From an uncultured Saprospiraceae bacterium (GTDB lineage: Bacteria > Bacteroidota > Bacteroidia > Chitinophagales > Saprospiraceae), in NCBI GenBank assembly GCA_937951615.1, contig CALFBH010000093.1:1-36720 (forward strand): a DNA stretch of 36,720 bases. Reading direction: 5' to 3'. A program made the translations under genes and the position numbers. Numbering within the stretch: position 1 is the first letter of the stretch; each line of letters begins with the position of its first letter. Below, piece by piece: positions 12,448 through 32,536 of the stretch. The notes beneath the pieces were generated by a model. That model searched no databases. It saw only the letters and a program-made list of their open reading frames with translations, and was not told where the DNA came from.

Positions 12448-12530
12448 GTGTTGCGGTGTTGATGTGTTGATGTGTTGTCGTGTTATCGTGTGAACTACAT
12501 CAACACCTCAACACGACAACACCTCAACAC
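12448..12530. repeat. Inverted period-8 word repeat (GTGTTGnn) in the metG-lnt gap
   Basis: On the + strand four units with exact GTGTTG cores, then GTGTTATC and GTGTGAAC, follow without gaps from 12448 to 12495. After TACAT come three CAACACnn units and a final CAACAC (12501-12530), the same word reversed. The core is fixed and the last two bases vary (CG, AT, AT, TC; AG, TC, AG, AT on the opposite arm). A 30-nt alignment of the arms gives 26 matches. It fills nearly the whole gap between the metG stop and the lnt start and would form a long hairpin in the lnt leader. Confidence 0.85.
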
Positions 12531-12534
12531 AATA

Positions 12535-14661
12535 TTACCTCACCGTAAACCCATTCCCAAATCCATCCGCCGGACCCACAAACACCAATTCCCCCTGCGC
12601 ATTCTCCGCCATCAAAATCATGCCTTCCGACATAACGCCACGCAACTTACGAGGAGCAAGATTCACCACCACAACAACCTGTTGTCCAATAATACTCTCC
12701 GCCTCATAAAATTCAGCAATACCTGACACCACAGTCCGCTGCTCAAATCCCAAATCCACTTTCAGCTTCAATAACTTCTTAGCCTTAGGCACTTTTTCAG
12801 CTTCTATAATCGTCCCGGTACGGAAATCCATTTTGACAAAATCATCAAAAGTCGCTTCATCTTTCACCGGTTCATAAGACACTTTCTGTTCCTTACTATT
12901 TTGCAATTTATCAATCTGCGCCTGGATCACCTCATTAGGAATACGAGTAAACAAATGTTCCGGTGTATTGATTGTACTGCCTTTCGGTAAAATTGCTTTT
13001 CCAGCTTCCAGATCATTCAGCATCAGCTGTAAATCGCCATTTTGTACAACAGGCAAATTCAGTAAAGTCCGCAACTTGGCAGAAATGAAAGGCATAAAAG
13101 GCTGACTCGCCACGCTCAATACCCCGACAATCTGCAAAGCCAGATTCATCACAACCTTGACCTGCTCTGGCTCAGTTTTCACAGTTTTCCAGGGCGCATT
13201 AAATTGTAAAAACTGATTCCCCATGCTCGATATTTCAATCAAAGCCTTCAAGCCGCCCCTGAAATCATAGGCTTCGATAAACTGACCAAGTTCGACCAGT
13301 TTCCCGTGCAAAATTTTCAATTCATTTTCATAAGAAGAAGTCGTCCCTTCCTCCTGCGAACCTGCAACAGCAAGACTAGCATCAAACTCAGGAACTGCAC
13401 CACCATAATACTTATTCGTCAAGACCAAGACCCGGTTGATAAAATTGGCAAATTTGCCCACCAGATCCGTATTGTTCAACTCCTGAAAATTGCCCCAGGT
13501 AAACTCGCTGTCCTTGAGTTCCGGCATATTTTTGATCAGCACATAACGCAGCACATCAATATGATTCACCACGCTGTCCTTACAATCTTCCAGATACTCA
13601 TGTCCCCAGACTGCCCAGTTGCGCGAAGTAGAAATCTTATCGCCTTCCAGGTTCATAAACTGATTCGCAGGTACATTTTCCGGAAGGATATAATCGCCAG
13701 ATGCCTTTAGAATTGCGGGGAAAATAATACAGTGAAACACAATATTATCTTTACCAATAAAGTGCACCAGTTTGGTGTCTTTATCTTTCCAATAAGGTTC
13801 CCAGTCTTTCCCATTATCCAAAGCCCACTGCTTAGTCGCCGAGATATAACCAATCGGCGCATCGAGCCAGACATACAGCTTTTTACCTTCCGAACCTTCA
13901 ATCTCTTGCGGAACATCTATGCCCCATTCCAGGTCACGAGTCATGGCGCGCGGTTGCAAATCGCCCACCCAAGAGCGACACTGACCCAAGACATGATTTT
14001 TCCATTCCTTCGGGTCATGTAATTGCTCGCCGTTCAGCTTGCCAGTATTGATCCATTCATCCAGCCATTCCGCATGTTTGTCCAGCGACAAAAACCAATG
14101 GGTGGTTTCCTTCAAAATAGGCTTATTCCCGCTAAGGGTAGAAACAGGATTAATCAACTCCGTGGGACTCAGTGCCGAACCACAATTTTCACATTGATCG
14201 CCATAAGCGGCATCGTGGCTACACTTCGGACAAGTACCTTTGATATATCGGTCGGCAAGAAACTGATTTTCTGATTCATCGTAATACTGCTCACTAGTTT
14301 TTTTAGTAAACTCACCTTTATCCAGTAAATTTCTAAAAAACTCCTGCGCTGTCTCATGGTGAATCTGCTCGCTAGTGCGGTGATACATATCAAAAGAAAC
14401 GCCCAATTGATCCATCGTCGTTTTGATCTGCTCATTATAGCGATCGACAATTTCCTTTGGCGTCACGCCATCCTTTTTTGCCCGTATGGTAATGGCTGCC
14501 CCATGTTCATCAGAGCCGCAAATATAAACCACATCTTTGCCCATTAATCGCAGGTAACGCACATAAATGTCGGAAGACAAATAAGCGCCAGCGAGGTGTC
14601 CGATGTGCAAAGGGCCATTTGCATAAGGCAGAGCGGCGGTTACGGTATATCGTTTTGTCAT
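12535..14661 (-). CDS. metG: Methionyl-tRNA synthetase
   Basis: 708 residues from the ATG at 14661 (MTKRYTVTAALPYANG). An in-frame upstream start at 14706 would only add residues translated from the leader repeat, so it is rejected. HIGH motif at 19-22; a four-Cys zinc knuckle at Cys144, 147, 157 and 160; KMSKS-type motif KISTS at 342-346; and an EMAPII-like tRNA-binding domain at about 600-708. This is the long dimeric form usual in Bacteroidota. It charges tRNA-Met for initiation and elongation. A TATATTTG promoter box lies at 14784-14791, and a period-7 inverted repeat fills the leader. Upstream of lnt on the same strand. Confidence 0.97.
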   Translation of the reverse strand: MTKRYTVTAALPYANGPLHIGHLAGAYLSSDIYVRYLRLMGKDVVYICGSDEHGAAITIRAKKDGVTPKEIVDRYNEQIKTTMDQLGVSFDMYHRTSEQIHHETAQEFFRNLLDKGEFTKKTSEQYYDESENQFLADRYIKGTCPKCSHDAAYGDQCENCGSALSPTELINPVSTLSGNKPILKETTHWFLSLDKHAEWLDEWINTGKLNGEQLHDPKEWKNHVLGQCRSWVGDLQPRAMTRDLEWGIDVPQEIEGSEGKKLYVWLDAPIGYISATKQWALDNGKDWEPYWKDKDTKLVHFIGKDNIVFHCIIFPAILKASGDYILPENVPANQFMNLEGDKISTSRNWAVWGHEYLEDCKDSVVNHIDVLRYVLIKNMPELKDSEFTWGNFQELNNTDLVGKFANFINRVLVLTNKYYGGAVPEFDASLAVAGSQEEGTTSSYENELKILHGKLVELGQFIEAYDFRGGLKALIEISSMGNQFLQFNAPWKTVKTEPEQVKVVMNLALQIVGVLSVASQPFMPFISAKLRTLLNLPVVQNGDLQLMLNDLEAGKAILPKGSTINTPEHLFTRIPNEVIQAQIDKLQNSKEQKVSYEPVKDEATFDDFVKMDFRTGTIIEAEKVPKAKKLLKLKVDLGFEQRTVVSGIAEFYEAESIIGQQVVVVVNLAPRKLRGVMSEGMILMAENAQGELVFVGPADGFGNGFTVR

Positions 14662-14669
14662 TTTTTTTA

Positions 14670-14769
14670 ATGATAAATGATGAACTATGAATGATGAATG
14701 ATGCATTTAGGACATTTTGCTTTGCAAAATGAGTATAAAATTCATCATTCATCGTTTATCATTCATAGT
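14670..14769. repeat. Inverted period-7 word repeat (ATGATGA) with central perfect hairpin in metG leader
   Basis: Five 7-nt units run from 14670 to 14704 (ATGATAA, ATGATGA, ACTATGA, ATGATGA, ATGATGC), and four reversed units from 14742 to 14769 (TCATCAT, TCATCGT, TTATCAT, TCATAGT). Between them sits a perfect hairpin, ATTTTGC-TTT-GCAAAAT (14714-14730). The inner array ends 8 bp before the metG start; the outer array begins about 14 bp after the promoter box. This 317-bp metG/orphan-gene spacer holds nothing else beyond the promoters and two hairpins listed separately. Confidence 0.85.
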
Positions 14770-14783
14770 TCTAAATAAGTTTG

Positions 14784-14791
14784 CAAATATA
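14784..14791 (-). promoter_or_regulatory. TAnnTTTG promoter box for metG (TATATTTG)
   Basis: On the minus strand TATATTTG matches the Bacteroidota -7 box. The expected transcript start is near 14777, so the whole inverted repeat would be in the 5' UTR. No clear TTG -33 box at standard spacing. Confidence 0.6.
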
Positions 14792-14833
14792 AAAATAGCT
14801 GCGTTGAAAAAGTGTATTTGGAGGATGTTATTA

Positions 14834-14882
14834 GTCCGAAGCGGACATAGGAAAGTTATTATGCACCGCAAGGGCGCATAAT
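14834..14882. other. Two adjacent hairpins between divergent metG and orphan gene
   Basis: GTCCG-AAG-CGGAC (14834-14846) is followed by ATTATGCACC (14858-14867) pairing with GGCGCATAAT (14873-14882), with one A-C mismatch and a 5-nt loop. Neither has a T-tract, and both lie outside any gene. They may belong to an interspersed palindromic element. Confidence 0.5.
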
Positions 14883-14920
14883 GAAGCAGAAAGAGGTGTT
14901 ATGTTTGAAATAATTTTTCA

Positions 14921-14928
14921 TACATTTG
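14921..14928 (+). promoter_or_regulatory. TAnnTTTG promoter box (TACATTTG)
   Basis: Exact match to the -7 consensus, 50 bp before the ATG at 14979, on the right strand for the two-gene orphan operon. A TTTG at 14904-14907 is closer than the usual -33 spacing. Confidence 0.55.
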
Positions 14929-14978
14929 GACAACGGATGTTTTTTGGAAATAGTTCAGAACGAGCCTAAAATTTCAAT

Positions 14979-15455
14979 ATGCAGGATCATTTTTTTACAA
15001 AACGAATAAGGTATAAATGTGATTTAGGAGATGAAAACCTAACAGACTTTTTAAGCGAATGGAATCGTAAAAAAGGCTGGAAAACTATGTGGTCTTATGA
15101 ACTGTATTTTAAAAAAGTTTTGAATAGAAATGAAATCATCTTAAATCGTTTTGTCAGTGAAGTATATGAATCGGCAGATGTACATATAAAATACGACCCT
15201 ACATCTTGTACTCTTGATGTCATCCTTAAACCTGTTAGGCGAGCTTATGCGGTGTTTTTAATCATTCCGGTTCTAATATGGGCAGGTATTTATGGAGAAA
15301 ACGTTGATTGGCGTTTTTGGTTATTACCAATTGGAGCATCTGTTTTGACAGTTACTTTACTGAAGTGGATGATATGGGATGATTATCGCAAGATAAAACA
15401 AGAACTTGAACAGAAATTTAAAGATAATAAGCGAAAATATATAGTTATTCATTAA
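14979..15455 (+). CDS. Unknown membrane protein with two transmembrane helices, 158 aa
   Basis: No family recognised. Residues 1-85 are soluble and rich in charged and aromatic residues; two hydrophobic segments (about 89-105 and 111-132) are separated by a very short GENVD turn, giving a hairpin topology; the tail (133-158) is basic and probably helical. The layout resembles small membrane proteins with a cytoplasmic N-terminal domain, but no function follows. A promoter box lies 50 bp upstream. The next gene starts 11 bp after the stop, so the pair is probably one operon. A-rich codon use, like its neighbours. Confidence 0.7.
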   Translation: MQDHFFTKRIRYKCDLGDENLTDFLSEWNRKKGWKTMWSYELYFKKVLNRNEIILNRFVSEVYESADVHIKYDPTSCTLDVILKPVRRAYAVFLIIPVLIWAGIYGENVDWRFWLLPIGASVLTVTLLKWMIWDDYRKIKQELEQKFKDNKRKYIVIH

Positions 15456-15466
15456 AGCCCTCGATA

Positions 15467-15883
15467 ATGAGAATGACAGCAATTATACTAGTCATAAGCC
15501 TTGTAACTTGTATGAATTTTAAGCAAGTCAATGCGCAGGTAGCTGAACAAAAGAATTCTTTTACTCCTGAAAAAATAAAGATTATTGAAAGTCAATTTAA
15601 GGGAAAAACAGTGCAGGAGCTGCTGGATTATATTGGAGAGGAGCATCTTAGGTCAGGTGCTTTTGATGAGCCTCCAGGCGAGCTATCGGGCTATGATTTT
15701 CAGTTTCGACCTTATCACTTTATTCGTGTTTATCCTGTGGGACGACTCCAATATCAGGAAAGCTTTAGTGCTGATATGACTTGGGATTTGGAGCTTTTTA
15801 AATTGGAGAAAATCGAATTTGTGGAGTATTACCAGTCTGTGCACGGCACTCCTTACATTCAGGATTCGCATCTTCCTTATTAG
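15467..15883 (+). CDS. Unknown small secreted protein, 138 aa
   Basis: No family recognised. The N-terminus has a hydrophobic stretch (4-16) and a plausible signal peptidase I site after VNA (around residue 22-24), so the product is probably periplasmic. The mature part has a helical KIKIIESQFKGKTVQELLDYIGEE segment followed by a Gly/Tyr/Phe-rich beta segment. Met3 is an alternative start with little effect. It is the second gene of a likely operon with the membrane protein 11 bp upstream, which suggests that the two act together in the envelope. Confidence 0.7.
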   Translation: MRMTAIILVISLVTCMNFKQVNAQVAEQKNSFTPEKIKIIESQFKGKTVQELLDYIGEEHLRSGAFDEPPGELSGYDFQFRPYHFIRVYPVGRLQYQESFSADMTWDLELFKLEKIEFVEYYQSVHGTPYIQDSHLPY

Positions 15884-15919
15884 AAAATAAAATAATTAAG
15901 GTCTTACCACACTTATTCC

Positions 15920-15927
15920 TATCTTTG
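15920..15927 (+). promoter_or_regulatory. TAnnTTTG promoter box for the ABC-F gene (TATCTTTG)
   Basis: Exact -7 consensus followed by C/G, as in many Bacteroidota promoters. Transcription would begin near 15934, 3 bp before the first unit of the word repeat, giving a 5' UTR of about 125 nt made almost wholly of repeat. Confidence 0.6.
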
Positions 15928-15936
15928 CGTTTAAAT

Positions 15937-16020
15937 GTGTTGTAGTGCGGAAGTGTTAATGTGTTGATGTAATTCGTTACACAATACGACAACACAACAG
16001 CACGACAACACAACAACACA
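15937..16020. repeat. Inverted period-8 word repeat (GTGTTGnn) in ABC-F leader
   Basis: Four 8-nt units (GTGTTGTA, GTGCGGAA, GTGTTAAT, GTGTTGAT; 15937-15968), a centre GTAA-TTCG-TTAC (15969-15980) that would be a UUCG-type tetraloop, then five reversed 8-nt units (15981-16020; mostly ACAACACA). The same word family as the metG-lnt gap 3.4 kb away, but with different variable bases. Further CAACACAA words run on to 16057, directly before the ATG. Confidence 0.82.
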
Positions 16021-16023
16021 AAT

Positions 16024-16041
16024 ACAGACAGGAATGTCTGT
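16024..16041 (+). promoter_or_regulatory. Hairpin with GNRA-type loop just before the ABC-F start
   Basis: ACAGACA-GGAA-TGTCTGT: a perfect 7-bp stem with a GGAA tetraloop ending 18 nt before the ATG at 16060, where it could affect ribosome access. Similar sequence occurs, from memory, as an interspersed spacer motif in several phyla. Confidence 0.55.
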
Positions 16042-16059
16042 GCAACACAACACAACAAA

Positions 16060-18006
16060 ATGATAACCGTCTCCAATATATTTGTAAAATACAGCGACCG
16101 CGTTCTGCTGGATCACGTCAATTTCGTTATTGGCGAACGAGAGCGCGTGGGCTTAGTGGGAAAGAATGGAACGGGGAAATCAACCATCCTCAAAATTATC
16201 GCCAAGGATCAAAGCCCGGATAGTGGTAAAGTGACTTATCCTTCTGTTTACACGATGGGCTTTCTGCATCAGGAATTGGAATTGCCGCAGGGTAAAACGG
16301 TGATGAATGAAGCCCTGACTGCCTTTGACGAAATCAAAAAACTGGAAAAAAGACTGGAGGAAATCAATGTAGAACTGGAAACTCGGGAAGACTATGAATC
16401 CGATTCTTACGCCGATTTATTGCAGGAATTGTCGGATGGAACAGATCGTTTTTCGATTTTTGGCGGCTATAATATGGAATCGGAAGCCGAGCGGGTATTG
16501 AAAGGCTTGGGCTTCAAGACGACAGATATGGATCGGCAGACCAGCGAGTTCAGTGGCGGTTGGCAGATGCGGATTGAACTGGCAAAAATTATCCTGAAAC
16601 GTCCTGATTACCTCTTGCTGGATGAGCCGACCAATCACCTGGATATTGAATCTATTATCTGGTTGGAAAATATGCTAAAAACCTATGAAGGCACAGTGGT
16701 CGTCATTTCTCACGATAAAACTTTCCTCAACCACGTCACCAACCGAACCGTAGAAATTGAACTGTCGCAAATTTATGACTATAAAGCACCCTACTCGAAA
16801 TTTTTGGAGCTTCGCAAAGAACGGAGAGAACAGCAGGAAAAAGCGTTCTCCAACCAGCAGCGCGAAATTGCCCGTAAGGAAAGATTAATAGAGCGCTTTC
16901 GCGCAAAAAGTTCTAAAGCCAAATTTGCACAGTCCTTGATGAAGGAACTGGACAGAATGGATAAAATCGAACTGGACAACGAGGATGCTTCTGCGATGAA
17001 ATTGCGCTTCCTGCCTGCGCCACGCTCCGGTGAGCTTGTGGTAGATGCCAAAAAGATTGTCAAGCAATATGATAAATTATTGGTGCTGAATAAGGTCGGT
17101 TTTCAGTTGATAAGAAAAGAACGCGTTGCTTTTGTGGGTAGAAATGGTGAAGGGAAATCGACATTGAGCAAAATTATAGCGGGTGTGTTGGGTAGTACAG
17201 ATGGAGAGGTGACGCTCGGACATAATGTGCAGATTGCTTATTACGCACAAAACCAAGCAGAAAGCCTAGACGCAAAAATGACCCTGCTAGAATCCATGGA
17301 AGATGGCTGTCCCGATGAATTGCGGACGAAGCTACGGAGTATTCTGGGCGCATTTTTGTTCAGCGGAGAAGATGCAGAAAAGAAAGTATCCGTCTTGTCA
17401 GGGGGAGAACGGGCGCGACTGGCATTAGCTAAAATGCTACTGCGCCCAGCAAATTTGCTGATTCTTGATGAGCCGACCAATCACTTGGATATTATTTCAA
17501 AAGACATTCTTAAGAAGTCGATTCAGGCTTATGATGGAGCTTTGATTGTCGTCTCGCACGACAGGGATTTTCTGGAAGGACTGACAGAGAGAACCATAGA
17601 ATTTCGTGATCAGCAGCTTCACGAATACCTTGGAGATGTCCAATATTTTCTGGAAAAACGTGAAGTGGATAATTTTAGAGATGTGAGTCTGGGCAAAAAT
17701 GCAGGAACAGATAAAGCGAAGAAGCAGGAAGTGGTAGTGGCGAAAGTAGAACTGACGCCCGAAGAAAAAAAAGTAAAAGAAAAGCAAAGCCGTGAGCTAA
17801 AACGGGAAGTTCATAATGCAGAGCGAAAAGTAGAAAGACTGGAAAAAGACATCGAAGCTCATGAGCGCGAAATGGCAGAGCCTGGTTTTTATGAAAGCGA
17901 TCATTCTGCTAAGACTTTGGAAGCCTACCAAAAGGCGAAAGAAGATTTGGAAGTTGCAATGGAAGTGTGGGAGCAAAAGCAAGAAGAACTAGATAGTTTG
18001 TCGTAA
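16060..18006 (+). CDS. ABC-F family ATP-binding protein (Uup/YdiF-like)
   Basis: 648 residues, with two ABC ATPase domains and no membrane part. First domain: Walker A GKNGTGKST (34-42), signature SGGWQ (165-169), Walker B LLLDEP (185-190). Basic linker (about 200-310). Second domain: Walker A GRNGEGKST (360-368), signature SGGER (447-451), Walker B LILDEP (467-472). The tail (about 560-648) is Lys/Glu-rich coiled coil, as in Uup-type proteins. ABC-F proteins act on the ribosome, mostly relieving stalled or badly placed peptidyl-tRNA; some protect against antibiotics, but the housekeeping Uup-like tail argues against a dedicated resistance factor. The leader is a long inverted word repeat plus hairpin, which suggests control at translation. 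Confidence 0.93.
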   Translation: MITVSNIFVKYSDRVLLDHVNFVIGERERVGLVGKNGTGKSTILKIIAKDQSPDSGKVTYPSVYTMGFLHQELELPQGKTVMNEALTAFDEIKKLEKRLEEINVELETREDYESDSYADLLQELSDGTDRFSIFGGYNMESEAERVLKGLGFKTTDMDRQTSEFSGGWQMRIELAKIILKRPDYLLLDEPTNHLDIESIIWLENMLKTYEGTVVVISHDKTFLNHVTNRTVEIELSQIYDYKAPYSKFLELRKERREQQEKAFSNQQREIARKERLIERFRAKSSKAKFAQSLMKELDRMDKIELDNEDASAMKLRFLPAPRSGELVVDAKKIVKQYDKLLVLNKVGFQLIRKERVAFVGRNGEGKSTLSKIIAGVLGSTDGEVTLGHNVQIAYYAQNQAESLDAKMTLLESMEDGCPDELRTKLRSILGAFLFSGEDAEKKVSVLSGGERARLALAKMLLRPANLLILDEPTNHLDIISKDILKKSIQAYDGALIVVSHDRDFLEGLTERTIEFRDQQLHEYLGDVQYFLEKREVDNFRDVSLGKNAGTDKAKKQEVVVAKVELTPEEKKVKEKQSRELKREVHNAERKVERLEKDIEAHEREMAEPGFYESDHSAKTLEAYQKAKEDLEVAMEVWEQKQEELDSLS

Positions 18007-18026
18007 TAAAGAAGTGGATTTCAACT

Positions 18027-18066
18027 CCCTTCCTTTTGTAAGGGATTCCGATAATTATCGGAAGGG
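18027..18066. other. Palindrome TTCCGATAATTATCGGAA and overlapping hairpin after ABC-F gene
   Basis: TTCCGATAATTATCGGAA (18046-18063) is a perfect 18-bp palindrome. CCCTTCC (18027-18033) can also pair with GGAAGGG (18060-18066), so two mutually exclusive structures share the GGAA arm. There is no T-tract, so a terminator is uncertain. It may be an interspersed palindrome or an operator for hutH. Confidence 0.5.
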
Positions 18067-18115
18067 GATGGGTTAAGCTAAAGTGCAAAAATATGGGTAA
18101 TCGCAAGGATTTCAA

Positions 18116-18166
18116 CCCAGTTCCCAATACCCCAATTACCAATACCCCAGTTACCAATTACCAATA
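18116..18166 (+). repeat. Direct period-7/8 word repeat (ACCAATT / CCCAGTT) in hutH leader
   Basis: Seven units of 7, 8, 7, 8, 7, 7 and 7 nt follow without gaps: CCCAGTT, CCCAATAC, CCCAATT, ACCAATAC, CCCAGTT, ACCAATT, ACCAATA. The array ends 6 bp before the ATG at 18173. No opposed arm is present. The same word family is found before miaE, 14 kb away. Confidence 0.82.
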
Positions 18167-18172
18167 AAGAAA

Positions 18173-19723
18173 ATGTTCAACTACGGAATAGACAAGCTGA
18201 CAACAGGCAAAGCCCTCCAAATACTGCAAGGAGAATTGAAGGCTGAAGTCAATGCGGAAACCAGAAAAAAAGTAGAGGCTTGTCATGAAGAAGTCTTGGC
18301 AATTGCAAGCCAGGACAAAGCAGTGTATGGGATCAATACAGGTTTTGGACCTTTGTGCAATACCAAAATCAGCAAAGACAAAACCAGTGAATTGCAGCGT
18401 AAATTGCTCCTAAGTCACAGCGTTGGCGTTGGGAAGCCTATCGCGAAAGAAATTGCCAAGTTGATGATGATTCTGAAAGTCCATTCTTTATCGAAAGGCT
18501 ATTCAGGTATTTCCATGCAGGTCATCGAACGGATTTTATGGCACATCGAACAAGACATTATTCCTATAGTACCAGAACAAGGTTCAGTGGGAGCATCAGG
18601 TGATTTAGCACCACTAGCACATTTGTTTCTGCCCTTGCTTGGTGAAGGTAAAGTGCAGTATAAAAACGAGATTAGACCTACCGCCGAAGTGCTTAGCGAA
18701 TTAAATATCCAGCCGCTCGACTTGCATCCAAAAGCAGGACTTGCGCTGATCAACGGCACACAATTCATAGCCGCCCACGCTGTGATGGTGGTCGATAAAT
18801 TATATAGTTGTCTGGCTCATGCTGATATGATCGCTGCGCTGATGATTGAAGGACTCATGGCTGCACAAACGCCATTTCATCCTGATTTACATCAAACCCG
18901 TCCATTTAAAAGTAATATCCACGTTGCGCATCGCATCAACCATTTTCTTAAAGATTCGGCGATTATGGAATCACATAGAGACTGTGATAGAGTGCAAGAC
19001 CCTTACTCCCTGCGCTGTGTTCCGCAGGTACATGGAGCTTCCCGAAATGCCTGGTTGCACCTCAAAGAAGCAGTAGAAGTAGAACTCAATTCGGTCACTG
19101 ATAATCCAATTGTTTTTTCAAGAGATTTTACAATTAGCGGGGGTAATTTTCATGGACAGCCACTTGCCTTGCCACTGGATTATGCCAGCCTTGCGGCAGC
19201 AGAACTGGGCAATATTTCTGACCGTCGTTCTTATCTGTCCTTAGAAGGAAAAACGGAGAATACGCCCAAATTGCTCATGAAAGAAACGGGTGTCAATTCA
19301 GGTTTTATGATTGTCCAATACACAGCCGCAGCTTTGGTTAGTGAAAATAAGGGTTTGTGTTTTCCGTCGAGTGCAGATAGTATTCCGACCTCTTTGGGAC
19401 AAGAAGATCATGTGAGCATGGGCTCAATAGGCAGCAGAAAAGCCTTGCAGATTTGTGGGAATGTAGTTAAGATATTGGCGATAGAAATGCTGTGTGCAGC
19501 TCAAGCTTTTGATTTTAGAAAACCTTTGAAATCTAGCCCTGTTTTGGAAGAAGTTCATGCTTGCATTCGCCAAAAAATTAGCCATGCAACGGAAGACCGA
19601 ATTTTTGGGGAGGACATTGAACAAGCCATTCAACTGATAGACAGTAAAGCATTGATACAAATTTCCCGAAAGGAAAAATATACCTCGAAAAGTGTTTATG
19701 ATGATTTATTTGAAACTTACTGA
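18173..19723 (+). CDS. hutH: Histidine ammonia-lyase
   Basis: 516 residues, the usual family length. It removes ammonia from L-histidine to give urocanate, the first step of histidine degradation. The MIO cofactor triad Ala141-Ser142-Gly143 is in GSVGASGDLAPL; the catalytic Tyr52 lies in VYGINTGFGPL, and the SHSVG motif is at 81-85. The late SADSIPTSLGQEDHVSMGS motif is also typical. The tail after about 440 follows the normal family pattern. hutU follows after 81 bp, itself filled by an inverted repeat that begins inside this gene's stop codon. hutI and hutG are not in the window. Confidence 0.95.
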   Translation: MFNYGIDKLTTGKALQILQGELKAEVNAETRKKVEACHEEVLAIASQDKAVYGINTGFGPLCNTKISKDKTSELQRKLLLSHSVGVGKPIAKEIAKLMMILKVHSLSKGYSGISMQVIERILWHIEQDIIPIVPEQGSVGASGDLAPLAHLFLPLLGEGKVQYKNEIRPTAEVLSELNIQPLDLHPKAGLALINGTQFIAAHAVMVVDKLYSCLAHADMIAALMIEGLMAAQTPFHPDLHQTRPFKSNIHVAHRINHFLKDSAIMESHRDCDRVQDPYSLRCVPQVHGASRNAWLHLKEAVEVELNSVTDNPIVFSRDFTISGGNFHGQPLALPLDYASLAAAELGNISDRRSYLSLEGKTENTPKLLMKETGVNSGFMIVQYTAAALVSENKGLCFPSSADSIPTSLGQEDHVSMGSIGSRKALQICGNVVKILAIEMLCAAQAFDFRKPLKSSPVLEEVHACIRQKISHATEDRIFGEDIEQAIQLIDSKALIQISRKEKYTSKSVYDDLFETY

Positions 19724-19798
19724 GTTGATTGAGTAATTGAGTTGATTAAGTAATTAAGTGTACAACTCAATATCTCAATCAACTCAATCAACTCAATA
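19722..19798. repeat. Inverted period-8/9 word repeat (GAGTTGATT) in hutH-hutU gap
   Basis: Units GAGTTGATT, GAGTAATT, GAGTTGATT, AAGTAATT, AAGTGTAC (9, 8, 9, 8, 8 nt; 19722-19763), then the reversed units AACTCAAT, ATCTCAATC, AACTCAATC, AACTCAATA (19764-19798). The first unit overlaps the hutH TGA, and the last ends 6 bp before the hutU ATG. It can form one long imperfect hairpin between the two genes of the pathway. Confidence 0.85.
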
Positions 19799-25284: not shown

Positions 25285-25326
25285 CAGTTTCAGTAGCAGT
25301 GTCAATCGCAGTATCAGTAACAATCA
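25285..25326 (+). repeat. Direct period-6 word repeat (CAGTnn) before a nuclease-like gene
   Basis: Seven 6-nt units without gaps: CAGTTT, CAGTAG, CAGTGT, CAATCG, CAGTAT, CAGTAA, CAATCA. Four bases are constant or nearly so and two vary freely. It fills the gap between the gap stop and the start at 25336. A two-unit version of the same word (CAGTAT/CAGTTA on the minus strand) lies after lnt near 10632. Confidence 0.8.
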
Positions 25327-25788: not shown

Positions 25789-26666
25789 ATTTTCGACATG
25801 TCTTGTCGTATTTTTTCGATGAAATCTATACTCACTTCAAAATCTTCTGCAATTTCTTCGATGGTCAGTTTTTCTCTTTTTAGGTGTTTTTTGATACTTT
25901 TTGTAAGGGCTTCTTCGATTAGTTTTTTGGCGTCCACTATCTTGGTATGTTGTTCACTTGCGATGTCTCTCAGTCTTTTTAGGTAGGCTTTGTAAGCAGC
26001 TTTTTCTTCATCTGTCAGATTTATTTCGTCTAATTTATTCTGTGCTTCTGACAGTCCTTTTGCAGTATAATTTTCTGGCAACTTACCATTCTTCAGAAAG
26101 TAAATCCATTCATCAAGTTTATCTTGAATGACATTATTGAATTTATCAACTTTTATAATCCAGTATTCGGGATAAATCTGGTAAGTTTCATCAACTTCAT
26201 AGGTTTCTTTTTGGACTTGGGCTAAATGTAGAACATCTCCCTGATGTATTCCTTTGAACTGAGTGATGCCATGATAGACATAGTCTTTACCCTGCCCTAA
26301 ATCAAAATAGGCAATGGTGATGGAAATTACTTTTTTAACTTTTGCATAAGCATCACCTTCTCCAATATATTCTGTAATGGCTTTGGAAGTTCCATATAGA
26401 ATTCTGTGAAAATAATCGTATTCTTTACTGTTTTGGACTTCTATGATGAGCAGTTCTCCTTTGGAATTTTCAACGAAAATATCTACCCGATTATGTTTGT
26501 CATTTTTGTCCTCTTTGTTGCCTTCACTTTCTAGAATCTTTTTGATAGTAATATCCTCGGAAAGTAATTCGCTAAGAAAACCTTCCAAAACATCGAAATT
26601 TGCTTTGTTTCTAAGCAATTTTTTCATTGCCCAGTCGAACCGTATGAGTTGTTTTCCCTGCTTCAT
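25785..26666 (-). CDS. Rpn-family PD-(D/E)XK nuclease / putative transposase
   Basis: 293 residues. The start FDWAMKKLLRNKANFDVLEGFLSELL is the typical beginning of this family (PDDEXK_2, PF12784). The active site is in RVDIFVENSKGELLIIEVQNS: Asp62, Glu76 and Gln78 (ExQ in place of ExK, common in Rpn proteins). The C-terminal part (about 225-293) is helical, with a helix-turn-helix-like end (TIEEIAEDFEVSIDFIEKI). RpnA of E. coli promotes RecA-independent recombination and has DNase activity. No terminal inverted repeats or target duplication are seen, so it is not a complete insertion sequence. It is tail-to-tail with the HSDR_N gene and overlaps its stop. Confidence 0.87.
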   Translation of the reverse strand: MKQGKQLIRFDWAMKKLLRNKANFDVLEGFLSELLSEDITIKKILESEGNKEDKNDKHNRVDIFVENSKGELLIIEVQNSKEYDYFHRILYGTSKAITEYIGEGDAYAKVKKVISITIAYFDLGQGKDYVYHGITQFKGIHQGDVLHLAQVQKETYEVDETYQIYPEYWIIKVDKFNNVIQDKLDEWIYFLKNGKLPENYTAKGLSEAQNKLDEINLTDEEKAAYKAYLKRLRDIASEQHTKIVDAKKLIEEALTKSIKKHLKREKLTIEEIAEDFEVSIDFIEKIRQDMSKI

Positions 26667-26892
26667 GCCTTAGTCTGAATTAATCCTTTTAAGTGGTTTG
26701 ATGCTGAGGTATCAGAATACAAACATGCTAATTTTACCAGACTCTATCATTGCCCAGCATGAAATTATTGTTGTTAACCTAAAATCTGTGTCGGGATGAT
26801 GGTTAATTCCATATGTCTGTGCAACTTTAGTTATCACCTAAAACAATTATTAGATTAATAAAGTTCCATAAAGACAATCTTCAAGAAACATA

Positions 26893-27588
26893 TCAACTCT
26901 CCCGCACCGTCCGCTGCTCAATACGTTTCTCATAATCCACCCCCTGAAAAATCCGCTGAACAAAAATACCTGGCGTGTGAATATTATTAGGATCCAATTC
27001 ACCTGGTTCTACGAGCTCATCTACTTCCACTATCGTTACCTTGCCAGCCATCGCCATCATAGGATTGAAATTGCGGGCAGTACCTTTGAAGATTAGATTA
27101 CCCATCGTGTCACCTTTCCAAGCTTTGACTAAGGCAAAATCAGCATGAAGCGCAGGTTCGAGAATATACCAGCGACCATCTATCTCACGGGTTTCTTTGC
27201 CTTCTGCTACTTCTGTACCATAGCCTGTAGCGGTATAAAATGCAGGAATACCAGCTCCGCCAGCGCGTATCTTTTCAGCCAGTGTGCCTTGAGGTGTTAA
27301 AGTGACTTCCAGTTCCCCAGAAAGCAGTTGGCGTTCAAATTCAGCATTTTCGCCCACGTAAGAGGAAATCATTTTTTTGACCTGACGGGTTTGTAGCATC
27401 AAGCCGATACCAAAATCATCCACGCCTGCATTATTGGAAATACAGGTCAGTCCTTTTGTTCCTTTTTTGACCAATGCTGTGATGCAATTCTCAGGAATGC
27501 CACACAAACCAAATCCACCCAACATCAGTGTCATATTGTCCTGAATATCGTGAATAGCTGCCTCAGCGTTTTTATATACTTTGCTCAT
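26893..27588 (-). CDS. scoA: 3-oxoacid (succinyl-CoA:acetoacetate) CoA-transferase subunit A
   Basis: 231 residues from the ATG at 27588; an extension to 27636 would translate the leader repeat and is rejected. The CoA-transferase subunit-A signature [11 protein letters not shown] is at 24-34, followed by SNNAG and the [16 protein letters not shown] motif. It moves CoA from succinyl-CoA to acetoacetate, allowing ketone-body use, but works only with subunit B, which carries the catalytic Glu. scoB normally follows at once; here the next 226 bp are empty and the next gene is unrelated, so scoB must be elsewhere or absent. Confidence 0.92.
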
Positions 27589-27602
27589 ATTTTTAAAATA
27601 AG

Positions 27603-27644
27603 ATGCAAAATACAAATTCCAAAATACAAATCCCAAATTCCAAA
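27603..27644 (-). repeat. Direct period-7 word repeat (TTTGnnn) in scoA leader
   Basis: On the minus strand six 7-nt units follow without gaps: TTTGGAA, TTTGGGA, TTTGTAT, TTTGGAA, TTTGTAT, TTTGCAT. TTTG is constant in all six and the three other bases vary. It ends 14 bp before the scoA ATG. Because TTTG is also the core of the promoter box, some units might act as promoters, but none is an exact TAnnTTTG. Confidence 0.82.
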
Positions 27645-27747
27645 GAAATATATAGCTCTGAATGCCCCGCTTTTGTGCAGTGTTTTGGCAGGCACAAACA
27701 AAGGCATGGCCTCACAGCGAAGCGGTCTCTCTTCTGTAGAGAAATTT

Positions 27748-29187
27748 TCAGTTAGAATTGCCTTCGGCATCTGTTTTGACAAGATAGAAGTCATCATTGT
27801 TCCCATTACTGTGCCTTCCGGCTAATATGTGACCACAGTCACCAGCATTACCCAGAGCATGAATCTTACTACTACTATTATTATTTCCTCCAAAAGTTTT
27901 CTCCCATTCCAAATTGCCGTTAAGGTCTATTTTGACTAGCCATGATTGGTCATTTTTGCTGCCGGCAAACAGATAGCTATTTCCAACTATCTTCACATCA
28001 TAAGCACGATCATCACCACTTCCTCCAAAGGTTTTTTCCCATTCCAAATTACCATTTTGATCTACTTTGACCAGATAGGCATCATAATTTCCATTGCCCT
28101 GACTGTCTGTCCAGCCTGCCAGTAAACATCCGCTATACGAAGAGTCATAAATGATACTATGCGCCATATCATAAGCACTACCGCCAAAAGTTTTTTCCCA
28201 TTGTAGATTACCAGAAAAATCTGTTTTAATCAGCCAAGCATCACTGCTTCCTGCTCCCTGACTAGTAGTTCCGCCTGCCAATAGATAACCATCCGACATG
28301 CGCATAATGGCATAAGCGCGGTCTGAGTTTGCTCCACCGTAGGTTTTTTCCCAAATGAGATTGCCGTCTTCATCTGTTTTTATAAGATAAGCATCAGAAT
28401 CACCTGCTCCCTGACTATCCGTGCGCCCTGCCAACATATAAGCATCGGGTGCATAAGCAATGTCAAGTATTAATTCGTCGCCTGTGCCTCCATAGGTTTT
28501 TTCCCAGATAAGATTGCCTAGGAAGTCTGTCTTTATAAAATAAGCATCTGAACCACCTGCTCCCTGACTGTATGTCCGGCCTGCTAGGACATATTCGCCA
28601 ATAATATTAGAAGGCGCTATGGCATAAGCTGCATCCAAACCACTTCCTCCAAAGGTTTTTTCCCATTCCAACTGTCCGTCAGTTCCTATTTTTGACAGAT
28701 AAACATCATAGTCGCCTGCGCCCTGACTTTTGGTCGCTCCAGCTAATACGCTGCCATATATCGTTACATCAAAGACAGGAGATGTAGCATAGGTAGCTGC
28801 ATAGTAATATTCTGCATCACCAAAATCCTGCTTGTACTCATACTTGGAGGATAATACCTGAGTCGTTTTTGTATAAACATCCTGTCCGAGGTCATTTGAG
28901 GCAGTTAAACTCACCTCGTAAGTTCCAGCGGCATCATAAATGTGTTCCGGCATTTGCTCATTAGAGCTATTACCATCACCAAAATCCCAGTTATAAGCAG
29001 TAGCATTTACAGAATTATTGATAAAAGTAGTCGGGCATTTTTCCCAAGTCGCTTCTCCTGTGAATGTTTGAATAAAATTTGCCTTAGGAAGTAGCGTTGG
29101 ATCTATTTCCTCGGGAAGGTCTTTATCGCAGCTTATTGTAAAAAAAGAAAACATACAAAAAGTAAGGAGGTATAACTTGTTTTTCAT
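27748..29187 (-). CDS. PKD-domain lipoprotein with six WEKTFGG beta-repeats
   Basis: 479 residues. Lipoprotein signal peptide with Cys20 (FTISC) followed by DKD. A PKD-like domain (about 35-112) has YNWDFGDG at 66-72. Residues 140-479 are six repeats of about 52 residues built on LAG-TxSQGAGxxDAYLIKTDxxGNLxWEKTFGGSGxDxAYAI; six WEKT[FY]GG copies are present, suggesting a six-bladed propeller-like fold. Proteins of this kind in Bacteroidota are surface-exposed, with no known enzyme activity. Its C-terminus ends at the sixth repeat, with no T9SS sorting domain, consistent with anchoring by the lipid. A terminator lies in the gap upstream, so it has its own promoter. Confidence 0.82.
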   Translation of the reverse strand: MKNKLYLLTFCMFSFFTISCDKDLPEEIDPTLLPKANFIQTFTGEATWEKCPTTFINNSVNATAYNWDFGDGNSSNEQMPEHIYDAAGTYEVSLTASNDLGQDVYTKTTQVLSSKYEYKQDFGDAEYYYAATYATSPVFDVTIYGSVLAGATKSQGAGDYDVYLSKIGTDGQLEWEKTFGGSGLDAAYAIAPSNIIGEYVLAGRTYSQGAGGSDAYFIKTDFLGNLIWEKTYGGTGDELILDIAYAPDAYMLAGRTDSQGAGDSDAYLIKTDEDGNLIWEKTYGGANSDRAYAIMRMSDGYLLAGGTTSQGAGSSDAWLIKTDFSGNLQWEKTFGGSAYDMAHSIIYDSSYSGCLLAGWTDSQGNGNYDAYLVKVDQNGNLEWEKTFGGSGDDRAYDVKIVGNSYLFAGSKNDQSWLVKIDLNGNLEWEKTFGGNNNSSSKIHALGNAGDCGHILAGRHSNGNNDDFYLVKTDAEGNSN

Positions 29188-29232
29188 ATTAATATGATGT
29201 TAATGAGTGGCAAATAGTTGCATTTTTTGTAT

Positions 29233-29269
29233 AAAAAAAGTGCCTTCAGGTAAAAGCCAAAGACACTTT
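29233..29269 (-). terminator. Rho-independent terminator after the choice-of-anchor-B gene
   Basis: On the minus strand AAAGTGTCTT (29260-29269) pairs with AAGGCACTTT (29237-29246), ten pairs including one G-U, followed by seven T (29233-29239, partly in the stem). It lies 60 bp after the stop of the gene at 29329. Confidence 0.82.
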
Positions 29270-29291
29270 ATATTTTAAAATAAGAAACTCC

Positions 29292-29319
29292 TTAGAATTT
29301 GGAATTTCCTACTTGGAAT
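29292..29319. repeat. Short period-7 word repeat (TTGGAAT)
   Basis: Four 7-nt units, TTAGAAT, TTGGAAT, TTCCTAC, TTGGAAT, ending 9 bp from the stop codon of the minus-strand gene. The word belongs with the TTTGGAA family of the scoA leader. Here it lies downstream of a gene and before its terminator. Confidence 0.55.
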
Positions 29320-29328
29320 TTTTTCAAT

Positions 29329-31710
29329 TTATTCTTTCACCACTTTCACCGGACGGCTCATACCTACTGCATTGCGAATTTGTACAAAATAAATACCTGC
29401 ATCTAGTTTTTGTCCTACATTCAGTGTACCTGTTTTGTTTAAAATTGGAAAGTTTTCTACTGTTTGTCCAAGAACATTGACCACTTCAAGGCTGGTTTTG
29501 CCATCAAGATTATCCAATGAATAATTGATGCTCAATGTTGCGTCAAATGGATTTGGAAAAGCAGTCATTTGAATACTTTCATCAATATTGCTGAGAGCAA
29601 TTGGTGAATCATCAAAAGCAACAAAATAATCAACACCAGCTTCTACCCAGTGACCAGGGTCATTATCAGCAGTTTCAAAAGAAATCTGCATAGTGGCTGT
29701 TGGATTTGGGAAATAATCTTTCACTCGTATAAAAGTACGAGGACGCCATTCACCAGCAGCATCAGTAATCGTTTGTATGGTTACACTGTTGGTTCCATCT
29801 GACAAGATAACTTCCAATATATCATTGGGCGTTGTTCCTTGTACGATTTCATTATAAAACCAAAGATTATAAGCCACATAAGGTTCATTCATAGCAGTCA
29901 GATCGAATAGGGGAGAAGTGAGTTCTGTTTTACCATTGTCCACATCAAATTCCCAGGGATCGCCACCGCCGTTTTGAGTCATATAGCAAAAAGTGCCCAA
30001 GTCAAAAGATATATCTGCATCAGGATTTACAGTAACACCGTCAAAGTCTGCAGTACCTTGTGGTGCGCCTCTTTCCCACATGCCGCGTTCTGCGTCGCCA
30101 GTAACTGTCCAACCCAAGTCGAGCATAAACTCATCCTGAATACCTTCATCCAATTCTATGGTGATGCTTGTGCCATCAATACCAAATGCGAGAATCTCTT
30201 TGGCGATAAAACCCCACTTACCAGCATACACATCATAAAAACCACCCGTGACATTATTGATAGAGAAATTACCAGAAGCATCAGACAGTAAGTCGTAAGA
30301 AAAATCAGCATTGGCAATAGATACCTGTGCATTAGGAATAGCTGTTCCGTCATCTGCACTGACCACTTGTCCTGTAACATTAAATTGAGGCTGTGCTGTA
30401 AGTGCTACATCCTGCATCGTTACCTGACTGTTCGCCAATGTAACACTGATGGTCTGCGGCATATAAGCTGGGTGGCTATATACTGCATCATAAGTACCGG
30501 AAGTTGGATAACCTGTTGCATACTCTCCAGACATGTCAGAAGAGGAAGCAACACCAGTAGTCATGATAGTAACCATTGCACCGTTGATCGCTGCGCCTGT
30601 ATTAGCATCTGTAACATTACCTTCCAGATAGCAAGCACGGATATAATTAGGCTGCAAGACTTCAAGCGTACCTTCAAGATTAGAAGTCAGCAATAAGCCA
30701 GAAGGCAGAAAAGGATAAGCTCCCCAACAACCGCTAAAGCCACCGTCAGGTCCAGCATAAGTATCGTATTTTGCGACTTCTACCAAGTTAGAAGGACGAT
30801 TTCCGTCAACAATAATAACGCCATCTGTATAATGAGAGATAACGACGTAATCATTCAGAACGTGTGCATTATGTGGAATAACACCCATACCTACAGTTGC
30901 CGTAGGACGAAACTCATCTAAGTATTGAATATCTGTTGGATCGGAAATATCGTAAGCAGCAGTTGGCGCGTCAGCGCGTTCATCTGTTGTGAAAATAACA
31001 TCGCCATTATCAGACAACCAAGCATTGTGCGTGAAAGCAAATGGCGTCCCATTACTACCTATCGCTGTGATATTGGATTTGTCGGATACGTCATATATTG
31101 TAAACACACCAGCATATACATCAGAGGTATAAAGCAAATTATTGCGAGCATAAGTGTCATGTGCGTAAATAGAAGGCGTTCTGCCTACATAGACAGGATT
31201 ATAAGGGTCAGCGTTCAGGTCAAATATAATCGTACCACCGTTATTGATATTACTGCCAGAGACATAAAGAAAGCCATTTTCATCAACATATAAATTGTGT
31301 ATAGAAGATAAAACGTCCGTGCTTCCATTAACCTCAATCGATGGTTGAAAATCGTAAGAAGTAACATTATTAGGCAAATCAGCCATGTTGATAATCAAAA
31401 CACCATTATTGGTTTCATTACTGACATAAGCGAAATGACTCCAAGTTTTCAAATCTCTCCAAGTGGAGGAAGGACCTGGTATATTAGCAACCTCTACAGG
31501 ATTTGCAGGGTCAGCAAGACTTACGATAGAGGTGCTGTTGCGCAGTCCCATCAAGGCATATTCTGTGCCGTCGTCGGCTGCATACCCCCAAATATCGTTA
31601 CCATTATCACTATAATTGACCTGTCCCACAAGGGTACAGTTAAGTGGTGCCAATTGAGCTTGGAGTGCGAACACACAGAGTGTGAATAAACAAGTTAAAA
31701 AACTTCTCAT
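29329..31710 (-). CDS. Choice-of-anchor B family protein with T9SS type A sorting domain
   Basis: 793 residues from the ATG at 31710, giving a clear signal peptide ending in ALQAQ (about 1-19). A 43-residue upstream extension is in frame but translates AT-rich leader and is rejected. Residues 20-355 are the choice-of-anchor-B beta-propeller-like region, beginning LVGQVNYSDNGNDIWGY with typical ISDP and NAH motifs and ending CWGAYPFLPSG. Then two carboxypeptidase-regulatory-like beta domains (about 361-440 and 443-520), a MAM/jelly-roll-like domain (about 540-705), and a T9SS sorting domain (about 715-793, FPNPF and VLGQ motifs). It is exported through the outer membrane and probably attached at the surface. 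Function unknown. Confidence 0.88.
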   Translation of the reverse strand: MRSFLTCLFTLCVFALQAQLAPLNCTLVGQVNYSDNGNDIWGYAADDGTEYALMGLRNSTSIVSLADPANPVEVANIPGPSSTWRDLKTWSHFAYVSNETNNGVLIINMADLPNNVTSYDFQPSIEVNGSTDVLSSIHNLYVDENGFLYVSGSNINNGGTIIFDLNADPYNPVYVGRTPSIYAHDTYARNNLLYTSDVYAGVFTIYDVSDKSNITAIGSNGTPFAFTHNAWLSDNGDVIFTTDERADAPTAAYDISDPTDIQYLDEFRPTATVGMGVIPHNAHVLNDYVVISHYTDGVIIVDGNRPSNLVEVAKYDTYAGPDGGFSGCWGAYPFLPSGLLLTSNLEGTLEVLQPNYIRACYLEGNVTDANTGAAINGAMVTIMTTGVASSSDMSGEYATGYPTSGTYDAVYSHPAYMPQTISVTLANSQVTMQDVALTAQPQFNVTGQVVSADDGTAIPNAQVSIANADFSYDLLSDASGNFSINNVTGGFYDVYAGKWGFIAKEILAFGIDGTSITIELDEGIQDEFMLDLGWTVTGDAERGMWERGAPQGTADFDGVTVNPDADISFDLGTFCYMTQNGGGDPWEFDVDNGKTELTSPLFDLTAMNEPYVAYNLWFYNEIVQGTTPNDILEVILSDGTNSVTIQTITDAAGEWRPRTFIRVKDYFPNPTATMQISFETADNDPGHWVEAGVDYFVAFDDSPIALSNIDESIQMTAFPNPFDATLSINYSLDNLDGKTSLEVVNVLGQTVENFPILNKTGTLNVGQKLDAGIYFVQIRNAVGMSRPVKVVKE

Positions 31711-31860
31711 GAATTTATATTTAATTAAATTGTTAGGATTGAATGGGGCGGAGATGCATAATAAGAAGTATGCAAATATGTTTAATGAATACGACAAAGA
31801 TAAGCTTTTAGGAAGGACAAAACTGTCAGCTAATTGCAAGTTTAGATGAAAGGTAGGGTT

Positions 31861-32442
31861 TTAATGCATCCGATCACCTCTCATTTCAAGCTCACTCATG
31901 ATTTTTACTTCATGGTCAAGATATTCCTGCCAGCGTTTTTTGACGCTTGCTTCATCACTGTACAATTTGGCAAGATCAATGAAGAGTCGGTAATGTGCAG
32001 CTTCTGCGACCATGAATTTGTGGTAAAACTCTTTAAGCTCATCATCTGCAATATGGAGAGAAAGTAGGCGAAACCGCTCGCAGCTACGTGCTTCTATGAG
32101 GGCACAAATCAACAAAAGCTCTAAAAGACGATCTTCACGACTGCCGCCTTTTTTCTGAAATTGAAACAGGGCTTTGACGTATTCGTCTTTGCGTTGCCTG
32201 CCTAGTTTTAAGTTGCGTTTGTCCAATTCAGCAAGCACGAGACGAAAGTGACCCCATTCTTCTGTGACAATAGGGGCTAATTGCCGGACCAATTCTTCCT
32301 TGTCGGAAAATAACTGAATAATAGAAATGCAACTTGTGGCTGCTTTCTGTTCACAGTAGGCGTGGTCAGTCAATATATCTTCCAGACTTTTTTCAGCCAG
32401 ATTTACCCAACGTGGGTCAGTAGGTAACTTGAGTCCTAGCAT
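31861..32442 (-). CDS. miaE: tRNA-(ms2io6A)-hydroxylase
   Basis: 193 residues, normal length. A non-haem di-iron enzyme that hydroxylates the isopentenyl group of ms2i6A37 in tRNAs reading U-starting codons, using oxygen. The ferritin-like ligands are visible: Glu31 (EQKAA), Glu62 and His65 (EEWGH), Glu117 (IEARS), Glu147 and His150 (AEAAH). It presupposes MiaA and MiaB, which are not in the window. The leader holds a small hairpin and a direct period-7 word repeat that runs into the stop codon of the preceding gene. Confidence 0.94.
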   Translation of the reverse strand: MLGLKLPTDPRWVNLAEKSLEDILTDHAYCEQKAATSCISIIQLFSDKEELVRQLAPIVTEEWGHFRLVLAELDKRNLKLGRQRKDEYVKALFQFQKKGGSREDRLLELLLICALIEARSCERFRLLSLHIADDELKEFYHKFMVAEAAHYRLFIDLAKLYSDEASVKKRWQEYLDHEVKIMSELEMRGDRMH

Positions 32443-32452
32443 AATTTAATTA

Positions 32453-32467
32453 TTTTGCGCAGCAAAA
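32453..32467. promoter_or_regulatory. Hairpin TTTTGC-GCA-GCAAAA in miaE leader
   Basis: A perfect 6-bp stem with a 3-nt loop, 11 bp before the miaE start. The same stem with a different loop (TTTTGC-TTT-GCAAAA) is in the metG leader at 14715-14729, also next to a period-7 repeat. Confidence 0.6.
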
Positions 32468-32478
32468 AACATCTAATT

Positions 32479-32536
32479 ACCAATATACCAGTTACTAATT
32501 ACCAATAACCAGTTACTAATCACCAATACACTAATT
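32479..32536. repeat. Direct period-7 word repeat (ACCAATA / ACCAGTT / ACTAATT) in miaE leader
   Basis: Units ACCAATAT, ACCAGTT, ACTAATT, ACCAATA, ACCAGTT, ACTAATC, ACCAATA, then ACTAATT after one extra base. A three-word cycle (ACCAATA, ACCAGTT, ACTAATT) is seen twice, so there is a 21-nt higher-order period. The last unit contains the stop codon of the upstream gene (32531-32533). Same word family as the hutH leader. Confidence 0.82.

Follow-up and report, generated by a model that had tools for sequence, protein, structure and literature searches.

Short tandem words in the intergenic spacers of a Saprospiraceae genus, often paired as opposed hairpin arms

Word arrays in the spacers of one contig

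We analysed a 36,720-nucleotide (nt) stretch of DNA from an uncultured Saprospiraceae bacterium (hereafter the window; assembly GCA_937951615.1, contig CALFBH010000093.1) and the arrays of short tandem words that occupy its intergenic spacers. The window is the complete contig C93 of a 6.96-Mb draft genome of 142 contigs (G000) and has 22 called genes and 18 called spacers. The genes that adjoin arrays, named here by our reading of their Pfam domains, include lnt, metG, an ABC-F type ATPase, hutH, hutU, GapDH, a CoA transferase and miaE. An initial annotation had described the spacers as filled with word arrays of short period, and scanning bore this out: ten arrays reached score 9, the threshold used for the window (12448-12491, 12497-12530, 14740-14766, 15981-16021, 16043-16057, 18147-18165, 19774-19797, 25285-25316, 27600-27644 and 32486-32527), compared with a mean of 0.39 and a maximum of 3 in 100 dinucleotide shuffles. 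A trace at 10632 and a related array at 29292, both listed in that annotation, did not appear in the scan, and its ATTATTG array at 36543 corresponded to 2.6 copies at 36545-36562 (Tandem Repeats Finder (TRF) score 36), beyond the last called spacer, and was not confirmed. An Rfam search of the window at gathering score returned no family, and a tRNA search of the window found none. The arrays, arms and core hairpins are listed below.

12448..12491, + strand: left arm, GTGTTGNN array of 5 units; scan score 23.5; pairs with 12497-12530, hairpin z -6.6
12497..12530, + strand: right arm, NNCAACAC array opposed to 12448-12491; from scan and fold
14669..14703, + strand: left arm of the ATGAANN element, directly upstream of metG (minus strand, ATG at 14661); TRF score 49
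14713..14731, no strand: shared core hairpin CATTTTGCTTTGCAAAATG; its CATTTTGCNNNGCAAAATG form lies at 119 places in G000
14740..14766, + strand: right arm of the ATGAANN element; from TRF, fold and scan
15937..15970, + strand: left arm, degenerate GTGTTGNN array; from sequence and pairing with the right arm
15981..16021, + strand: right arm, NNCAACAC array, upstream of the ABC-F gene (start 16060); score 18, hairpin z -4.7
18116..18165, + strand: ACCAATT/CCCAGTT array, single arm, ending 7 nt before the hutH start (18173); TRF 18116-18158 score 72, scan 18147-18165
19721..19759, + strand: left arm, GAGTTGATT array, beginning at the hutH stop; TRF score 64, hairpin z -5.8
19763..19797, + strand: right arm, CAACTCAAT array, ending 7 nt before the hutU start (19805); from TRF, fold and scan
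25285..25316, + strand: CAGTNN array directly after the stop codon of the GapDH-family gene (25280); from TRF and scan
27600..27644, + strand: CAAATNC/CAAAATA array before the called start of the CoA-transferase gene (minus strand, 27588); score 13
32453..32467, no strand: shared core hairpin TTTTGCGCAGCAAAA; from core-hairpin search
32473..32528, + strand: ACCAATT/CCAGTTA array next to the core hairpin, a single arm without a visible partner; TRF score 98, no stable + strand fold

The arm at 14669-14703 was found by TRF, the gene caller having placed it within metG. Folding of five window elements revealed four strong + strand hairpins (z -6.6, -4.7, -5.5 and -5.8), whose opposed arms begin at 12448/12497, 14669/14740, 15937/15981 and 19721/19763. 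The fifth, 32455-32540, has no strong + strand hairpin (z 0.27); its minus strand gave a minimum free energy of -19.3, a value without a z score.

Two further features of the window stand apart from the arrays. A small palindrome, TTATGCACCGCAAGGGCGCATAATG, lies upstream of metG at 14859-14883 and is retained with small changes in three other genomes (G001, G003 and G005), where the remaining spacer is far less alike by eye. At 3196-4698, a 225-nt tandem repeat of 6.6 copies lies within a large open frame (2-6592), whose product we would guess to be a repetitive, probably surface, protein.

Genome-wide census, arm polarity and the shared core

We extended the scan to 1.949 Mb of G000, taken in 32 chunks, with 1403 genes from our own open reading frame (ORF) caller and 1171 spacers of at least 20 nt, counting arrays with a period of 5-12 nt. 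Arrays of score 12 were present in 217 of the 1171 spacers, against 2, 6 and 3 in three shuffles, and those of the stricter score 18 in 78 spacers, against none in shuffles. Roughly one spacer in five of this Bacteroidota group bears tandem short words, which in many cases make up both arms of a hairpin. The sampling was non-random, comprising a first fetch and some later contigs (such as C41) already known to contain matches; the part chosen by contig number gave a similar rate (67/371 spacers, with a simpler gene caller), and an earlier 1.149-Mb subset had arrays in 202/691 spacers at score 10 (7-18 in five shuffles). Neither outcome that would have refuted the initial annotation was seen: shuffled sequence gave few arrays, and arrays are plentiful outside the window. 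Imperfect inverted repeats were found in 447 of the 1077 spacers of 40-700 nt, compared with 55 in one shuffle.

The periods of 270 spacer arrays were mainly 6 nt (64), 7 nt (94) and 8 nt (85), with 10 of 9 nt. About a dozen word families occur in G000, including GTGTTGNN, GTCSATR, ATGAANN, RATTGGT/ACCARTY, CGGGTTG, CAAATT, CAGTNN, AATTCGT, ATTGTTGN and TGAGTTGAT; TTAAGT was not counted as a family by this test, its 46 regular-expression matches showing no enrichment over the reversed control (56). That several words occupy exactly two distant loci proved false genome-wide, an artefact of the small window. The pattern GTGTTGNNGTGTTG has 1083 matches in G000 (67 for its reversed control), 42-528 in five other members of the genus and 0-7 in 54 genomes of other genera, so that its abundance is bound to the genus among the 60 genomes searched. 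Spacer ends below the array threshold also carry excess matches at lags 7 and 8 (one shuffle), in leaders and more strongly in trailers, in both G000 and G003. One locus, G000:C6:28535-28670, consists of seventeen perfect consecutive units of GTGTTGTC and is a candidate for fast length variation.

Neighbouring arrays of the same word face each other in a fixed polarity for three words. Counted as left arm then right arm (LR) against the reverse order (RL), opposed pairs numbered 24:1 for GTGTTG, 33:0 for GTCSAT and 5:0 for ATGAAT, with 1:0 for RATTGGT; no opposed pairs of GGGTTG or TGAGTTGAT were present in the G000 sample. Many arms enclose a common centre, the core palindrome TTTTGC-N3/4-GCAAAA, which has 110 copies (10 in genes, 100 outside) where five scrambled control palindromes have 0-1. 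Among the 98 intergenic copies with full flanks, the arms are complementary at 61, compared with 15.8% for randomly paired arms, and 71 have an array within the 70-nt flank. The arms around the core belong to many word families, and in a few hybrid elements one side differs in word from the other (C10:91738, C7:80961 and C12:109056, and by eye C1:133757 and C10:155615). The stricter core CATTTTGCNNNGCAAAATG occurs at 21 places in G001 and at one each in G003, G004 and G013, and is absent from the other 55 of 59 relatives. Our searches of an open-licence library showed no description of a shared core hairpin inside the arms of many tandem words.

Dispersal, turnover and position

The GTCSATR family behaves as dispersed elements, since its loops recur in both orientations: 35 of the 36 loops of at least 30 nt have relatives elsewhere in the sample at a median identity of 90%, and 308 of the 632 matches lie on the opposite strand. 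These elements are intergenic, have inverted ends, loops of 6-143 nt and no coding capacity, as expected of a miniature inverted-repeat transposable element (MITE). Some copies terminate in TAACAGTTTAG..CTAAACTGTTA, a sequence with 39 genomic occurrences (9 for the reversed control); such ends would be compatible with a TA target. Among GTGTTGNN hairpins, eight of nine long loops have relatives, and 340 of the 1171 spacers fall into blast families. Other MITE-like families of G000 have the inverted ends AGTGTTCGATTAAAGTATG.. and GTGTGTATAGCAAATTGCAC.. (for example C12:112774 and C7:25905) and form blast communities of 21 and 12 spacers. Two families of about 160 nt in G003 (L255 1260-1418 and 18093-18258) have many copies in G002 and G004; one of them has GATCATGTTTAAAATTTT ends and seems to be missing from the orthologous site in G002.

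Sister species of the genus are about 85% identical. At the leader of the ABC-F gene, which is 87-89% identical among G002, G003 and G004 and has a near-identical promoter flank, each of the three species has a hairpin of its own at the same site, and G003 and G004 differ in the word, though not the length, of the array ahead of the ATG (both by eye). We compared 25 orthologous pairs from 16 spacers, taken from the G003 segments L255, L256, L258 and L262: a hairpin was present in both members of 7 pairs, in one member of 11 and in neither of 7, the last two classes being overcounted because the gene borders of the script cut the ABC-F hairpin and the script missed short-armed hairpins such as the GAGTTG hairpin of G002 opposite the GTGTTGTG hairpin of G003 (L262 13843). 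Flank identities in the seven both-hairpin pairs are 72-93%; six of these pairs share no 10-mer in their arms, and the remaining one is a conserved, apparently coding stretch. The proposal that these spacer repeats are a distinct class, present throughout the genome and turning over fast, is supported.

The class may extend beyond the genus with other words. Among 593 spacers of 80 named loci, mostly from Bacteroidota and surveyed with a simpler gene caller, 28 had arrays (1 shuffled) and 107 had inverted repeats (32 shuffled). Nine Saprospiraceae-type loci had arrays in 1 of 59 spacers. By the same method, 40 of the 181 spacers examined in G003 had arrays and 93 had inverted repeats. The relatives found in the contig scan are Bacteroidota. 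By eye, periodic-word arrays, some with opposed arms, are also present in Chitinophagaceae metagenome-assembled genomes (L176 5428-10100 and L173 8089) and in Niastella caeni (L177 21021).

In the window the arrays do lie mostly before start codons, as first described; genome-wide they hug stop codons just as readily. Array density per 10 kb is 12.0 in co-directional spacers of the forward strand, 12.1 in those of the reverse strand, 12.6 in convergent spacers and lowest, 6.0, in divergent ones. Array ends lie within 5 nt of a gene end in 96 of 540 cases (32 expected): 60/276 at stops (18.2 expected) and 36/264 at starts (14.0 expected). Read in the sense of the gene, A/C-rich arrays prevail up to 12 nt from a start (57, with 10 G/T-rich and 17 intermediate) and G/T-rich ones near stops (53, with 17 A/C-rich and 34 intermediate), as arm polarity predicts. 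The 201 convergent spacers contain 116 inverted repeats, the 654 co-directional ones 296 and the 222 divergent ones 94. In co-directional spacers, the hairpin arms read on the transcribed strand have 292 G·T and 302 A·C mismatches, so that G·T is no more frequent, and the same holds for array hairpins only (78 and 95); selection on RNA should favour G·U, and the lack of such an excess points to the DNA rather than the RNA level.

The initial annotation had also noted that word cores are kept while the same positions vary. In arrays with at least four mismatches and sufficient length, mismatches were clustered at fixed phases more than in simulated random-substitution decay for period 7 (mean z 0.54, standard error of the mean (s.e.m.) 0.17; 5/55 arrays at p<=0.05) and period 8 (mean z 0.89, s.e.m. 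0.22; 6/52), with no excess for period 6 (mean z -0.10, s.e.m. 0.09; 0/57); the observation therefore holds for the two longer periods. When the arms of 29 distinct GTGTTGNN hairpins are aligned at pairing register, 6.6% of 91 units have complementary variable dinucleotides, where 23% is expected. The same comparison in 15 short-loop hairpins gave 4 matching units out of 52, where 20% is expected (P 0.0044 on permuting the order of units within arms). GTCSATR shows the same trend weakly at both positions (0.371 versus 0.456, P 0.037; 0.397 versus 0.493, P 0.018; 38 pairs). Common descent may explain part of this mismatch excess: by eye, the long-loop GTGTTGNN copies resemble one asymmetric element in two orientations, and the 15 short-loop hairpins could share ancestry too. 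General purging of long palindromes was not supported as a cause, the longest perfect runs being no shorter than under random placement (10.02 versus 9.90 in array hairpins, n=84) and in non-array hairpins longer (8.98 versus 8.55, n=206), although one sbcD gene is present.

Origin of the arrays

The arrays are probably repeats like the short tandemly repeated repetitive (STRR) sequences of cyanobacteria, carried on miniature inverted-repeat elements that spread and are replaced as DNA and are enlarged by slippage. They would belong to a population of short dispersed elements that is found across the genus and codes for no protein. In its typical form such an element would be an imperfect palindrome, each arm being a degenerate tandem array of the same 6-9 nt word; the arms face each other in fixed polarity and close on a tiny loop or on the shared core hairpin, sometimes with a longer loop. 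Some families, clearly so GTCSATR, have been copied as units in both orientations, presumably mobilised in trans by a transposase; their arrays would then grow, shrink and swap words through slippage and exchange between copies. Long perfect runs such as the 17 units of GTGTTGTC argue for slippage as the expander. Insertions and expansions would survive solely between genes, so that arrays come to abut stop and start codons. As species diverge, the hairpin at a site is lost or replaced by one of other words, and individual loci would probably lack a function of their own.

Several observations weigh against this account. Most inverted repeats (402/506) do not overlap an array, leaving 104 that do. 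In a smaller sample, CGGGTTG neighbours run in the same direction only (2 RR, 3 LL, no LR), and AATTCGT and CTTTGCGN have one RL pair each and no LR. The short-loop hairpins that make up the majority of the GTGTTGNN family share words but by eye no common loop, so that unit-wise copying is unsupported there, and neither plain copying nor repair templated by the other arm predicts the sub-chance pairing of variable positions. By eye, certain single-arm arrays have the same word in different species (L256 6097, L255 16728 and 18032), which leaves room for function. We saw by eye no target-site duplication in 38 GTCSATR flanks, three of them cut by stretch ends, and found no source transposase: the genome has 4 Y1 transposase (PF01797) hits, few enough to make IS200/RAYT an unlikely mover, and DDE transposases were not searched. 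A candidate autonomous source of the TAACAGTTTAG ends on contig C85, the single pair about 1.2 kb apart among the 39 exact TAACAGTTTAG places, proved to be two elements around an unrelated ORF. At this site (L366, G000:C85:39226-40503), a 279-aa open frame lies between two GTCSATR elements, and the whole, 1.2 kb end to end, is reminiscent of a composite unit. A plasmid search with two arrays gave no match, for which the low-complexity filter may account.

The statement that no named element has these properties was only partly right, because two published repeat classes, STRR and TAACTGA arrays, are related. In the excerpts of the literature compared here, the STRR of filamentous cyanobacteria (PMC2670836) are numerous intergenic tandem arrays, with units usually of 7 bp, hairpin-capable and of unknown function. 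The present arrays are likewise intergenic, of many copies, built on units of about 7 nt and hairpin-forming, as the opposed arms and the folded window elements show; they differ in phylum, in having periods of 6, 7 and 8 (few of 9) and many word families per genome, and in the common core hairpin and the fixed polarity of the arms that we measured. TAACTGA heptamers (MacGregor 2015, PMC4679880) occur as short tandem intergenic arrays, patchily and at strain-specific positions, in Beggiatoaceae, cyanobacteria and five Bacteroidetes; as excerpted, they have one dominant word arranged as direct repeats, with one inverted set among 170, and in the main genome they mostly lie immediately ahead of starts, in contrast to the inverted arms and lack of start bias in this genus. 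The excerpted papers on such tandem heptamers call their function unknown and see no evident spread mechanism. The BrickBuilt MITE of Porphyromonas gingivalis (PMC4596501, in excerpt) is another intergenic Bacteroidota element with an internal tandem repeat and limited host range, but has a 23-nt unit, 19 copies and a single repeat tract between short inverted ends, whereas here the arms themselves are arrays and copies and words are far more numerous. REPINs, associated with RAYT transposases (PMC3116915, in excerpt), are likewise extragenic inverted doublets that form hairpins and are dispersed and non-autonomous; their REP is a conserved 16-mer rather than a tandem word array. Among long simple sequence repeats of 1-11 nt (Mrazek 2007, as cited in PMC4679880), heptanucleotides are commonest in most genomes and polymerase slippage is proposed; the present arrays differ in their degenerate units and inverted pairs.

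We weighed four other explanations. That the arrays act in RNA, adjusting translation, mRNA stability or termination either as hairpins in the transcript or as A/C-rich leaders without structure, accords with the window arrays that finish near start codons, the A/C-rich sense of arrays close to starts, the four strong folds and the slightly higher share of inverted repeats in convergent spacers. We nevertheless consider it unlikely, and the suggestion that transcript structure controls translation was not supported. The spacer-type densities and the distances to stops and starts led us to reject a leader function, G/T-rich arrays hugging stops equally often, and they leave G000 without the forward-oriented placement directly before starts of TAACTGA-type arrays. 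The mismatch counts led us to reject RNA pairing, and hairpins are mostly unconserved at orthologous sites (one common hairpin in 25 pairs, in the stretch that looks coding), with no Rfam match in the window. Phased binding arrays, in which a DNA-binding or nucleoid protein reads the word core at 6-9 nt spacing and words follow the specificity of the binder, are similarly improbable. The fixed-phase mismatches of periods 7 and 8 would fit, as would, by eye, a single-arm array whose core is retained while NN changed between G003 and G002 and the joint change, at constant length, of the core letters of four units between G003 and G004; against this, about a dozen word families would require many binders, and periods of 6-9 nt are out of phase with the helix.

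Purely neutral slippage and decay, with hairpins arising by template switching during replication rather than from mobile elements, would account for the long perfect 7- and 8-nt runs, the residual lag 7-8 signal in sub-threshold spacer ends and the prevalence of transition-type mismatches, the largest class in co-directional hairpin arms (594/1346); template switching can create hairpins (PMC8794818, in excerpt). We think this rather improbable, since the same words, polarity and core hairpin at many unlinked loci require dispersal, and template switching that homogenises arms predicts matched variable positions where mismatched ones are observed. Most doubtful, and very unlikely in our view, is hairpin-seeded writing, whereby an enzyme lays tandem words on the arms of core hairpins or swaps arms between them. 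In its word-writing version, to which we give equally little credence, a putative enzyme or replication mode would build words on both arms of the seed TTTTGC-N3/4-GCAAAA, keep the word core complementary, leave or impose mismatches at variable positions, rewrite whole arrays at once and overwrite spacers up to coding borders. The single core inside arms of many families, the hybrid elements, the site that has another hairpin in each of three species (by eye) and the systematic mismatch would all fit; yet recombination between dispersed copies explains the hybrids, core and words could travel together, and no enzyme was identified.

On our best reading, then, the hairpins behave as tiny spreading DNA elements rather than as switches at gene starts, a variant of repeats known from cyanobacteria. 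With hundreds of loci, sister species, a common core hairpin and mixed-word hybrids, the genus offers a natural experiment in which simple counts separate RNA-level from DNA-level explanations and in which such arrays can be seen as arms of spreading elements. Hairpins and periodic leaders in such genomes should accordingly not be taken for riboswitches.

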